A DNA stretch of 37,403 nt from Candidatus Peregrinibacteria bacterium (GTDB lineage: Bacteria; Patescibacteriota; Gracilibacteria; UBA1369; LOWO2-01-FULL-3). Under the pieces are notes generated by a model, which saw only the letters and a program-made list of their open reading frames with translations, did not search any database and had not been told where the DNA came from. The stretch is taken from contig JACPLZ010000031.1 of assembly GCA_016186245.1 (NCBI GenBank), positions 1 through 37,403 on the forward strand, in the 5' to 3' direction. A program made the translations under genes and the position numbers. This document shows, in pieces, positions 5,512 through 35,892 of this stretch; the stretch's first letter is position 1; each line of letters begins with the position of its first letter.

Positions 5512-6141
5512 TCAGCAATTTTTCAGATTTGCTATCGCCACGCTCCTATCATCAGATTCAAAAATATATGTTCCGGCAATCATAATATTTGCTCCAGCTT
5601 CTCTGCATATCCTTGCCGTTTTATCATCAATTCCCCCGTCAACACTTATATCTCCATCATACCCCAAATCCCTTAGCTGCCTTATTTTTGGCATCATGTC
5701 CTTCATGAATTTTTGCCCGCCAAACCCGGGCTCAACCGTCATAATCAAAATTTGATCAACCATCTCCAGCACGCCTTCCAAAACTTCCACGCCGGTTTTT
5801 GGCCTCACGGATACCCCGTTCTTCACCCCCAAATCCCTGATGGTACCCAAAACTCCCTTTAAATCTTTGCACGCCTCCGCGTGGACAATCAAAGTATCGG
5901 CGCCGGCCTTCACAAAATCCTCAAAAAAATCCCACGGATGTTCTATCATCAAATGCACATCAATCGGCAATTTTGTTTTAATCCATTTCATCACCGGCGC
6001 CCCAAAACTTATGTTAGGCACAAAATGCCCATCCATCACATCATAGTGCAACCGATCACTGTACGGCTCTACCTCCTTAATTTCCTCATTCAGCCTGCCG
6101 AAATCAGCCGACAGAATTGAAGGTGCGACTTGTATATTCAT
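5512..6141 (-). CDS. rpe: Ribulose-phosphate 3-epimerase
   Basis: A 209-residue TIM-barrel enzyme interconverting ribulose-5-phosphate and xylulose-5-phosphate. It begins with the family signature VAPSILSADFGRL, followed by LHYDVMDGHFVPN (metal and catalytic residues), DVHLMIEHP, MTVEPGFGGQ and VDGGID (second catalytic Asp and phosphate site). Length is slightly below the usual 215-225. The start overlaps the rpiB stop by 4 bp, so the pair is translationally coupled, consistent with shared pentose-phosphate function. Confidence 0.95.
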   Translation of the reverse strand: MNIQVAPSILSADFGRLNEEIKEVEPYSDRLHYDVMDGHFVPNISFGAPVMKWIKTKLPIDVHLMIEHPWDFFEDFVKAGADTLIVHAEACKDLKGVLGTIRDLGVKNGVSVRPKTGVEVLEGVLEMVDQILIMTVEPGFGGQKFMKDMMPKIRQLRDLGYDGDISVDGGIDDKTARICREAGANIMIAGTYIFESDDRSVAIANLKNC

Positions 6142-17573: not shown

Positions 17574-19311
<1,738 letters not shown>

Positions 19312-19334
<23 letters not shown>

Positions 19335-19893
19335 GGACGCAGAAATGTTTTGGCTGGATTGCAATATCGGTTCCAAAGTTACCATGAAATATCCGGCAAT
19401 TTACCTCATGGGATCCGGTGCGCGCGGCGAAGTTCAATCACTCGCATTCTCAGGCAAAAATCAGCACCAGGATGCCGGCGCAAAAATCATCCATGCCGCT
19501 CCAAACACCAGTTCTAAAATCGTTTCCAAATCAATTTCCAAAGCCTCCGGCCACAGCACTTACCGCGGACTGCTTCAGGTAAATAAAGGCGCGACTAACG
19601 TAAAAAGTCACGTTTCCTGCGATGCTCTGTTGTTGGATGAAAATTCCCGTTCTGATACTTATCCAACAATGAAAATAGAAGAAGATGATGTCTCCATCGC
19701 CCACGAAGCCACTGTCGCAAAAATCGGCGAAGAGCAATTATTTTATTTAAGATCCCGCGGACTTACGGAAGAAGAAGCAGCCAGCATGATCGTCAACGGT
19801 TTTGCCAAACCGATCATCAAACAATTGCCCATGGAATACGCGATAGAACTAAACCGGCTTATCGAGATGGAAATGGAGGGCAGTGTTGGATAA
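19312..19893 (+). pseudogene. sufB: SufB C-terminal part (out of frame with the N-part)
   Basis: Starting at [19 protein letters not shown] this frame aligns without gaps to the last ~190 residues of SufB: GSKVTMKYPAIYLMGSGARGE, HQDAGAKIIHAAPNTSSKIVSKSIS, SYRGLLQVNKGA-type repeats, CDALLLDENSRSDTYPT, IGEEQLFYLRSRGLTEEEA and the end ELNRLIEMEMEGSVG. It is the intact C-terminal beta-helix. A TTG at 19312 is the only upstream start, so independent translation is doubtful. The sequence normally joining VEGC to KRA is not present anywhere in the locus. Confidence 0.8.
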
Positions 19894-22604: not shown

Positions 22605-22722
22605 ATTAGAATATTAAAAATATACAAACAAACCATCCCACACCCCCCCCACTTGTCAACACAACATAGACAACGCTCCAACATTTATAGTAGAATTGAA
22701 ACAGTTCTCGAGGCTGTCGGTC

Positions 22723-22750
22723 AAAAAGCCCCCTCGTCAGGGGGCTTTTT
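22723..22750. terminator. Strong bidirectional rho-independent terminator
   Basis: A perfect 11-bp stem AAAAAGCCCCC/GGGGGCTTTTT with loop TCGTCA. It reads as a terminator in both directions and lies 10 bp after the CCA end of the minus-strand tRNA-like element, so it probably ends that transcript. Confidence 0.85.
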
Positions 22751-22760
22751 GCTAATAATT

Positions 22761-22832
22761 TGGTGAAGCTACGGGGAATCGAACCCCGCCCGACAGATCT
22801 CGAGGCTGTCGGTCTGCACCAGCAGCAGCCCC
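22761..22832 (-). ncRNA. tRNA-like element, possibly a tmRNA tRNA-like domain lacking its mRNA-like part
   Basis: On the minus strand the 72 nt begin GGGGCTGCTGCTGG and end in a T-arm (CGGGG TTCGATT CCCCG), TAGCTTC, A73 and CCA. GGGGCTG pairs with TAGCTTC including G3-U70, the alanyl-tRNA-synthetase identity pair. The 5' end resembles tmRNA (GGGGCTG then a stemless D-loop). A 7-bp stem CCGACAG/CTGTCGG in the P2 position closes on the nine-base loop CCTCGAGAT, so tag ORF and pseudoknots are absent. No regular anticodon arm or D-stem is possible. Leader and trailer (GCTAATGATT, AATTATTAGC) extend the acceptor stem. A degenerate tRNA is an alternative. Confidence 0.45.
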
Positions 22833-22985
22833 ATAATCATTAGCAGGCTGAATATATCAATCAAAGATTAAAAAGTTATTAAATAATTCTAAAATTTAAC
22901 CAATTTCAATTTCCATAGGACATAAGCCGAAAAATCATATATCATCTGGTCATATTTTCTTATTTTTCTGCAGATTTTATATCTG

Positions 22986-33477: not shown

Positions 33478-33744
33478 ATGCTGCATACGAATAAAAAGAA
33501 AGTCATCCGCCTTTTAAAAATAGTCGAAGGCCAAGTCCGCGGCCTCCAGGAAATGATCAACGCGGAAAAATACTGTGTCGATATTATCACACAGACTTCC
33601 GCTGCCAAACAGGCTCTTTCCGGCATCGAAAACACCCTCCTTGAAAATCATTTAAACACCTGCGTCCTCCATCAGATCAAGGCAAATCAAACATCAAAAG
33701 CAATTGGTGAAATAATGAAAATCTATAAACTCAAACGAAAATGA
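33478..33744 (+). CDS. csoR: CsoR-family copper-sensing repressor
   Basis: 88-residue all-helical DUF156 regulator. The Cu(I) ligands C-H-C are C33 (KYCVDI), H58 and C62 (NHLNTC), as in CsoR rather than the RcnR/FrmR variants. The N-terminal helix KKKVIRLLKIVEGQVRGLQEMI is the family DNA-binding face. Binding of Cu(I) should release the operator at 33449-33467 and derepress csoR, copA and the genes after it. The stop overlaps the copA start by 4 bp. Confidence 0.93.
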   Translation: MLHTNKKKVIRLLKIVEGQVRGLQEMINAEKYCVDIITQTSAAKQALSGIENTLLENHLNTCVLHQIKANQTSKAIGEIMKIYKLKRK

Positions 33745-35876
33745 CAAATCCAGCAACTTACAAAGTAAAAGGCATGCACTGCGCATCCTGCTCGGCAATA
33801 ATTGAAAGAACAATCGGCAAACAGGCCGGCGTTAATTCCGTATCGGTAAATTACGCCAACGAAAAGGCAAAAATAGATTTTGATTCTTCCAAAACTTCAA
33901 TAGAGAATCTTTCAAAATCAATTGAACCTTTAGGCTACTCGATAGTTGCCGAAAATGTCGCGATTGAAACAGGGGAAGGAAAAAAGTTGCTCGCTCCGCT
34001 CGCAACCACACACCAACACACCGAAGTCGACAATCTCCGCAGAAAAATCCGCATCGCAATCCCGCTCGTCATTCTCACAAGTATCATCATGGTCTGGGAG
34101 CTTCTCGTCTCTCCATTCGAAATTCTTCCGGAAATGCCGGAAATCCTTAAAGAATTTTTCCATCACCTGCTCCCGGTAATCGCCACATATGCAATGTTTG
34201 TTACGGGAAATACCTACCTCAAAGGCATCTGGACATTCATCCGACATGGAGCCGCAAACATGGATACCCTCATAGGTATCGGCACATCCACAGCCTACCT
34301 TTACAGTTTCATCATCACAGCTTTTGAAGAACCACTCAGTCAATATATCAACACCGCCTACACATATTACGACGTAACAATTGTCGTCATCGGCCTCATC
34401 ACTCTCGGCAAATATCTTGAAGCAAGATCCAAATTAAGAACGGGGGACGCCATAAAAAAACTCCTCAACCTTCAGGTAAAAACCGCAATTGTTATCCGCA
34501 ACGGAAAAGAAATGGAAATCTCCGTGGACCAGGTCGCACACAATGATTTAATTCTTGTAAAACCCGGGATGAAAATACCGGTTGATGGCATTGTGGAAAA
34601 AGGCTCCACCAATATAGACGAATCCATGCTCACCGGCGAACCGATCCCCGTCCTCAAACAGGAAGGCGATAAAATCGCGGCGGGAACAATAAATACCACC
34701 GGATCCATTACCATGAAAGCGACAGGCGTTGGCTCGGAAACACTTCTTGCCCATATTATAAAAATGGTGGAAGAAGCCCAGGGCTCCCGCGCACCGATTC
34801 AAAAACTCGCCGATAAAATATCCGGAATTTTTGTGCCAATCGTGCTGGTCATTTCAGCAGTCACTCTCATATTATGGCTAGCCGTCGGCAGTCAATTTAT
34901 GGCATTTTCACAGGCGCTTTCATTCGGTCTTGTGGCCTTCGTAAGCATCCTTGTTATCGCTTGCCCCTGCGCTCTCGGCCTCGCAACCCCAACCGCGATA
35001 ATCGTCGGTGTCGGCAAGGGCGCGCTAAACGGAATTCTTATAAAAAATGCCGAAGTCCTCGAAAAACTTTATAAAATAGACACTCTCGTCATCGATAAAA
35101 CCGGCACAATCACCAAAGGAAAACCGGAAGTCCTCGACATAAAAATATCTGAAGAAAAAGATAAAAAAGAAATCCTCTCAATCCTCGCAACTTTGGAAAA
35201 ACACTCCGAGCACCCGCTCGCCGAGAGCATAGTAAATTATGCGAAGAAGAAAAATATTCCATTTAAATCGGCAGCGGATTTTAAAAATATTCCCGGCAAA
35301 GGCATCACCGCCTCAGTTAATGACATAACATATTTCGCGGGTAGCAGCGGATTTATCGCGGAAATGAAAATTCCTTTCGATGAAAAAACAATAGAAGAAA
35401 TAGCAAAAAAAGGCCTAACTCCGATAATTCTCGCGACTAAAAAAGAGCCGCTGGCAATCGTGGGCATCGGCGATGCGTTAAAAGAAGAAGCAAGAGAAGC
35501 TATCGAAAAACTGCACAGCATGAAAATCAAAATAATCATGGCCACAGGGAGACGGCGTCAACGACGCGCCTGCACTCGCAAAATCCAACGTCGGCATTGC
35601 CATGTCCACAGGCACAGATGTCTCCATCGAAACAAGCGACATCACTCTCCTGCACGGCGACATCAGAAAAATCGCCCAGGCCATTACCCTCTCCCGCTAC
35701 ACTATGCGCACAATAAAACAAAATTTATTCTGGGCGTTCATCTACAACATCATCGGAATACCGCTGGCAAGCGGCATATTCTATCCATTGTTTGGCTGGC
35801 TTTTATCTCCGGTATTTGCCGGGCTGGCCATGGCCTTTTCCAGCGTATCGGTAGTCACCAATTCTCTAAGACTTAA
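33741..35876 (+). CDS. copA: Copper-exporting P1B-type ATPase, frame broken in the P-domain
   Basis: The first ~603 residues are CopA: HMA domain with C14-A-S-C17 (GMHCASC), A-domain TGEP, membrane site CPC in [13 protein letters not shown], phosphorylation site DKTGT, and HP in [10 protein letters not shown]. Reading continues to KIKIIMATG (to about 35549). There it meets GDGVNDAP of the hinge motif directly but in the +1 frame, so the last ~110 residues of this frame are spurious. About 43 residues between MATGD and VGDGVND (DNKETA... to the nucleotide-hinge approach) are missing. It exports Cu(I) using ATP. Coupled to csoR by a 4-bp overlap. Confidence 0.88.
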
Positions 35877-35892
35877 AACCAGAAAAATATGA
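35548..35892 (+). pseudogene. copA: CopA C-terminal part (out of frame with the N-part)
   Basis: From [19 protein letters not shown] this frame gives the canonical end of Cop[38 protein letters not shown] with the copper-site [23 protein letters not shown] with M-x2-S-S. Its stop overlaps the next start by 4 bp (ATGA at 35889-35892), matching the coupling used elsewhere, so this is the true 3' end of copA. An internal start (MSTGTD at 35602) gives only a two-helix fragment. Confidence 0.85.

Follow-up and report, generated by a model that had tools for sequence, protein, structure and literature searches.

A multicopy tRNA-like RNA with a predicted antisense partner in Candidatus Peregrinibacteria and other Patescibacteria

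Introduction

Is the tRNA-like element on the minus strand at positions 22751–22844 of a Candidatus Peregrinibacteria contig a minimal alanine-accepting RNA, or what is left of the tmRNA gene ssrA? The initial annotation of this DNA, which is 37,403 nucleotides long (the window), offered both readings, having described a tRNA domain resembling that of tmRNA but lacking a D-stem and an mRNA-like part. Comparison with related genomes indicates that the RNA is real and does not have the status of a relic. The Peregrinibacteria genome that carries it holds three copies in all. On the minus strand, the element is bordered by an SLH-domain gene on one side and by a NifU-like gene on the other.

Two other genes in the window deserve mention in their own right. 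The SufB gene (17574–19893, plus strand) contains an intein with a LAGLIDADG domain, and its C-terminal extein lies in another frame (19312–19893), suggesting a frameshift or an assembly error. The frame of a heavy-metal P-type ATPase (33741–35892, plus strand) is broken near its C-terminal part, and the remainder is found in a second frame (35602–35892).

Results

Anatomy of the tRNA-like RNA

Most of the structure first proposed for the window copy was recovered in the fold (Table 1). The acceptor stem, GGGGCTG/TAGCTTC, carries the G3:U70 pair on the minus strand, the T-arm is present, and the closed P2-like stem corresponds to the middle hairpin. Leader and trailer extend the acceptor stem by pairing with each other, and a terminator follows the element. 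The statement that there is no D-stem proved wrong, because a D-like stem is present and covaries across the family (helix 2). An mRNA-like domain is indeed absent from the window element, and the core measures 69–73 nt in all copies. The window stretch has a folding energy of −63.2 kcal/mol, compared with −41.2 kcal/mol for shuffled sequences (z = −6.4, 0 of 200 shuffles). Pairing of leader and trailer recurs in the relatives, with a mean of −11.7 kcal/mol, versus −6.1 kcal/mol when the two strands are taken from mismatched loci. Because A and T runs lie on its two sides, the terminator hairpin could serve both of two convergent RNAs.

We also considered an ordinary tRNA overlooked by ARAGORN, a program that the initial annotation had proposed to run. 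It made no tRNA call for the window copy, and the middle arm and loop do not have the form of a 5-bp stem with a 7-nt loop, and this candidate was rejected.

Table 1. Positions of the features of the two-RNA locus in the window.
Feature	Position	Strand	Basis or detail
tRNA-like core, 72 nt	22761..22832	-	fold and model R2, 56.4 bits
D hairpin of core	22814-22825	-	CTGC-TGGT-GCAG
Middle arm of core	22790-22812	-	CCGACAG/CTGTCGG, 9-nt loop
T arm of core	22772-22788	-	CGGGG-TTCGATT-CCCCG
ACCA end of core	22761-22764	-	A73 and encoded CCA
5' leader GCTAATGATT, pairing with trailer	22835..22844	-	fold
3' trailer AATTATTAGC	22751..22760	-	sequence and fold
Terminator-like hairpin, flanked by A and T runs	22723..22750	both	terminator called on both strands
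Predicted antisense sRNA, about 49 nt	22702..22750	+	sequence, promoter call, duplex prediction
Sigma-70-like promoter of antisense RNA	22667..22696	+	TAGACA-18-TAGAAT, 10/12 matches
Target stretch complementary to antisense RNA	22793..22814	-	core positions 19-40
Three 11-bp direct repeats TTTTAGAATTA / TTTAATAACTT / TTTAATCTTTG	22862..22894	-	sequence
Putative -10 box TATATT of tRNA-like gene	22851..22856	-	position in sequence

A family of copies

A hand-written pattern returned no further copies in this genome; a covariance model succeeded. The other two copies, which the initial annotation had not noticed, lie at G000:C14 and G000:C59 and were picked up by the tmRNA search as 70-nt elements. 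Both have the G3:U70 pair, the CCA end, the same arms, the leader/trailer helix and the terminator. A covariance model built from these two copies (R1) was run on 148 relatives, the closest of which are Candidatus Peregrinibacteria and Peribacteria, and elements of 69–73 nt were distinguished from tRNA-length matches of 74–77 nt. The shorter elements turned up in numerous genomes across the same family and order, frequently as multiple copies, with up to five per genome.

Members of the family are about 70 nt long, with a D hairpin of 3–4 bp, a middle arm of about 9 bp and a T arm. The middle arm varies between 7 and 9 bp and its loop between 7 and 9 nt, and a constant anticodon is absent across the copies. 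Pair 3:70 is G:U in 66 of 67 extracted copies, a count that may be mildly biased because the model was seeded with G3:U70 sequences, and the discriminator is A73 in all 67. Retention of both in nearly every relative fits the suggestion of a minimal RNA that may accept alanine. Among 68 distinct aligned matches, 20 of the 24 pairs showed two-sided changes and 95.2% of cells were paired, a result reached by none of 500 shuffles.

Several loci are inherited vertically within genera. An all-against-all comparison of the flanking reading frames revealed no shared neighbouring protein; the only matches came from overlapping or duplicate loci, from a single family of cysteine-rich proteins close to a few copies, and from frames translated from the RNA itself.

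Relation to tmRNA

For every copy that scored, the best match in the competition within Rfam clan CL00001 was tmRNA (RF00023), and never tRNA. Most scores lay between 20 and 46 bits, with 47.1 for L014 and 53 for one G061 copy in the genome search, where the window copy reached 22.7 bits against a gathering cut-off of 47 bits. At the gathering threshold, Rfam made no call for the window element. In a sample of copies tested at gathering level, no Rfam family reached its threshold; under relaxed thresholds, copies matched tmRNA, a few also matched mascRNA weakly, and L014 just reached the tmRNA cut-off. Full-length RF00023 matches span only about 70 nt and leave out the mRNA-like part. The acceptor and T arm of some copies are identical to those of the relatives' tmRNA (GGGGATG ... 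CCGGGTTCAACTCCCGGCATCTCCACCA).

The family has one tmRNA feature, a tRNA-like domain with the alanine identity pair G3:U70, and no copy has the mRNA-like domain with resume codon and tag frame, the core being only 69–73 nt. The 5' GGGG and the 3' CCA stand in normal order, not in that of a two-piece, permuted tmRNA, and the match to RF04321 covers only the T arm, the acceptor and what follows (21.6 bits versus 47).

A tmRNA match above the cut-off was present in 121 of the 148 genomes and SmpB in 132. Neither a complete ssrA nor SmpB was found in the present assembly, which is 87% complete, and incompleteness best explains their absence. The initial annotation had asked for a check whether a complete ssrA exists elsewhere in the genome; the search of this genome found none, and relatives do carry complete copies. 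In G012, G022, G027, G041 and G084, for example, complete tmRNA and SmpB coexist with the element. Because both stand beside it in close relatives, the element is neither a decayed tmRNA nor its replacement.

The predicted antisense RNA

Beyond the terminator, the initial annotation had also missed a copy of the 5' strand and loop of the middle arm, at 22701–22722. This segment forms the first 20 nt or so of a predicted sRNA and is antisense to the tRNA-like RNA, the remainder of the sRNA being the terminator. Its target comprises the end of the D hairpin, the 5' strand of the middle arm, the loop and the start of the 3' strand.

When antisense matches were sought within a few hundred bases of each locus, complementarity to the D arm and to the loop and 5' strand of the middle arm gave a local match score of at least 22 in 74 of 84 loci, and clear antisense was absent in the other 10. 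Mismatched loci scored 12.6 on average and never more than 26, the 95th percentile being 17, although the true null is somewhat higher, because the best of four orientations was allowed per locus; second-best orientation scores, mostly 12–18, indicate its size. Of the 74 loci, 46 are convergent, with a direct copy downstream of the tRNA-like gene; 22 are tandem, with an inverted downstream copy; and 6 are divergent, with a direct copy upstream. Each arrangement puts the antisense RNA under a promoter of its own. Such a promoter, with at least 9 of 12 matches and the same placement, occurs in 68 of the 74 loci, and the distance from the end of the sigma-70 −10 box to the complementarity is 4–8 nt in 59 of these 68. 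Where one group has the tandem form, the sequence TTGCCT within the acceptor 3' strand doubles as the −35 of the antisense RNA, and in other Patescibacteria families TTGACA-17-TATAAT-like promoters lie directly 5' of the antisense segment.

Pairing is predicted to be specific. The window duplex has a predicted energy of −44.7 kcal/mol, as against −18 to −22 kcal/mol with the genome's other two targets, and the 3 x 3 duplex table of this genome is diagonal. Predicted energies averaged −33.8 kcal/mol for cognate pairs, −18.2 when the partner was another copy from the same genome and −15.6 for pairs drawn at random.

Promoter of the tRNA-like gene

Transcription of the tRNA-like RNA is predicted to start at 22844, the first base of the leader stem. 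Three tandem 11-bp direct repeats lie 5' of the putative −10 box, as in OmpR/PhoB-type promoters, and we propose that they form an OmpR/PhoB-type box in place of a −35; regulators of this type bind 11-bp repeats of such a kind. Across 66 copies, self-match of the upstream region was strong at lags of 11 (z = 14.3) and 22 (z = 9.4), and none was seen further upstream. A-tract phasing could mimic an 11-bp box, but the repeats read TTTAAnnnnnn in the family of the window genome and contain TCAG in another, which argues against mere phasing. The 11-bp periodicity is not general outside the order of the window genome. A pattern of the three-repeat box, searched in six genomes, fell mainly on module loci; beyond these it matched a decayed copy and a single further site, and three genomes belonging to one genus had no matches elsewhere.

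G000, G022 and G027 each have a single PF00486 protein, a winged helix (wHTH) without a receiver domain. This receiver-less OmpR-type protein (L169, L171, L172, L175) has a conserved neighbourhood of dtd/glyS and a sigma-like HTH gene, and we infer that it may be the protein that binds the 11-bp boxes. On two viral contigs, L112 and L113, the promoter of the tRNA-like RNA overlaps a palindrome resembling ACTCAATGAGT, which suggests that a repressor may act there in place of the 11-bp boxes.

Joint change and decay of the two RNAs

At syntenic loci both strands of the hairpin and its loop change in step with the antisense copy, while leaders and terminators remain largely alike. Between L069 and L065, GGTTGACAGCGAATCAACC has become GACCAACTACGAATTGGTC, with the identical change in the antisense copy, and L134 and L133 provide a second example of joint change in arm and antisense. 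A decayed module in G027 (L163, 1500–1700) has the tRNA-like RNA fused to the antisense promoter; the deletion lies between the loop and the antisense copy, so that the 3' half is lost, as expected from recombination between repeats. Taken together, sequence comparison shows the fold with its alanine element, the promoters, and the complementarity and co-evolution of the two RNAs, with strong support for anatomy and pairing.

Distribution

Much of one bacterial order carries the module; in other Patescibacteria it is sporadic, and some viral contigs have it as well. The viral contigs L112, L113 and L137 carry it with the antisense divergent or in tandem, next to phage or mobile-element genes (reading frames identified by eye), and one viral copy adjoins a large serine recombinase. 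The tandem form also occurs in two bacterial records, L103 and L108. RNAs of the same shape were found in L092, L099, L104, L109 and L111, which come from metagenome-assembled genomes named Chloroflexi, Gemmatimonadaceae, Gammaproteobacteria and Rhodobacterales and from a viral contig; no antisense was present within 300 nt of these. In L054 (G023:C159), two RNA copies lie within 2.8 kb, at 5567 and 8333, and a recognisable antisense accompanies only the first.

Discussion

The observations describe two RNAs. One is a compact tRNA-like RNA with an alanine identity element, in which a single closed hairpin would take the place of the mRNA-like domain; the other would be an antisense sRNA made from a constitutive promoter, whose complementarity begins at its 5' end with the loop and continues into the hairpin's 5' strand and the D arm. 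We tentatively favour, at somewhat less than even chances, the explanation that the first RNA mimics the tRNA domain of tmRNA and perturbs translation when released from the second, as an RNA-RNA pair of toxin-antitoxin type or as a switchable brake. The 5' end of the sRNA would nucleate on the loop and invade the middle and D arms, and the opening of these arms would break the L-shape and silence the tRNA-like RNA, much as Sok acts on hok mRNA. Escape may be provided, in the order of the window genome, by an OmpR/PhoB-type activator acting on the 11-bp repeats. In excess, the tRNA-like RNA would be alanylated and could then act on translation, most probably by competing with tmRNA for AlaRS, EF-Tu, SmpB or stalled ribosomes. 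Because it would donate alanine and offers no reading frame, it would be a dead end on the ribosome. The D hairpin differs from the stemless D loop of tmRNA, so that binding of SmpB is uncertain. The resemblance to toxin-antitoxin systems lies in the orthogonal pairs, the constitutive antisense, the regulated target, the several copies and the presence on viral contigs; loci inherited vertically within genera and numbering up to five in a genome would also be in keeping with a regulatory role. A fuller version, which we consider possible although we would rather bet against it, is an RNA-only module in Patescibacteria and some viral contigs, in which an alanylatable mimic of the tmRNA domain jams or redirects ribosome rescue, held by its antisense RNA and switched by a receiver-less OmpR-type protein.

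The main rival reverses the roles. The antisense sRNA would be the effector, regulating mRNAs in trans, and would be titrated by a regulated sponge, the stable tRNA-like RNA, comparable to the tRNA-derived sponges of RyhB and RybB. The sRNA begins with an unstructured seed that is perfectly complementary to the loop, and the sponge's own promoter would induce it. However, seeds differ between loci and change fast at syntenic loci, which a set of mRNA targets would resist, and a sponge has no need of G3:U70, A73, CCA and the elbow; we judge this explanation improbable, at about one chance in five. Conservation of the alanine identity would be accounted for if the charged RNA supplied alanine for a non-ribosomal use, such as aminoacylation of lipids, cell wall or peptides, with the antisense limiting supply in a non-toxic regulatory switch. 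A promoter that looks regulated and the vertical inheritance of several loci also agree with this, but no conserved neighbouring enzyme was found and such a supply would not call for several mutually orthogonal antisense pairs, so that we regard it as unlikely.

Much less probable still are the readings of the RNA as an ssrA reduced to a remnant or to a minimal form, and as the acceptor half of a two-piece tmRNA in which the antisense RNA would supply the other half. The best clan match of the RNA is tmRNA, and ssrA and smpB were not found in this 87%-complete genome, but the multiple copies, the strong compensatory covariation, the unpermuted gene order and the complete ssrA and smpB alongside it in relatives rule out a replacement and the remnant that had been suggested initially. 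The split version was rejected too, since the antisense RNA of the window, about 49 nt long, is mostly terminator and too short for a tag frame; GCTGCA-like strings in some tandem sRNAs are better read as complements of the D arm. The least credible explanation treats the downstream copy as a recombination product without RNA function: an element would have integrated into a tRNA-like gene, and the copy would be its att site. It would fit the direct repeat of an anticodon-arm-like sequence, the viral copy adjoining a large serine recombinase and the relative whose 3' half was lost between repeats. What refutes it is that copies occur in three orientations at a nearly fixed distance from a promoter: 22 loci have the inverted downstream form and 6 the direct upstream form, and the spacing to the −10 box hardly varies. 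Peregrinibacteria loci also contain no integrase.

The two-RNA module is absent from Rfam 15, and no description of it was found in the open-licence literature searched. If our preferred explanation of an antisense-gated mimic is true, this would be, to our knowledge, the first module in which a tRNA-like RNA is controlled by an antisense RNA as its dedicated partner. It raises the testable question of whether a tRNA domain can act on the ribosome on its own, with no mRNA domain attached, and the paired promoters and triple covariation offer an unusually clean natural set for studying the divergence of RNA-RNA pairs.

Among known systems, the tRNA-like domain of tmRNA shares with the module the alanine acceptor with G3:U70, the T arm, a reduced D region and a closed helix at the place of P2. 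tmRNA has in addition an mRNA-like domain, a tag frame and pseudoknots, whereas the module has a D stem of 3–4 bp, a length of about 70 nt, several copies, a dedicated antisense RNA and, in relatives, coexistence with complete ssrA and smpB. The mascRNA/menRNA family (RF01684) also consists of tRNA-like RNAs with a reduced D arm, and a weak Rfam match (33.9 bits) lies below threshold; these RNAs are mammalian, are cut from a long non-coding RNA and have no antisense partner, and shared descent is not implied. Allo-tRNAs and the unusual cloverleaves resembling tRNA-Sec have unusual arm lengths and decode codons by a defined anticodon. In the module, by contrast, the loop is free to vary in length and sequence, and the place of the 5-bp anticodon stem is taken by a middle arm of about 9 bp.

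The type I pair hok/sok and the type VIII RNA-RNA toxin-antitoxin systems come close in organisation. Like the module, they combine a stable structured RNA and a constitutive antisense RNA in a small locus; the antisense RNA has a single-stranded 5' seed, paralogues are orthogonal, promoters are convergent or in tandem, and loci also occur on viral contigs. At the sequence level the module shares with type VIII an adjacent antisense RNA predicted to pair specifically with its partner. No toxin peptide of the type I kind is encoded, the core being a covarying non-coding fold. The controlled, putatively toxic RNA of the module does without a peptide and is itself tRNA-like, with an amino-acid identity element.
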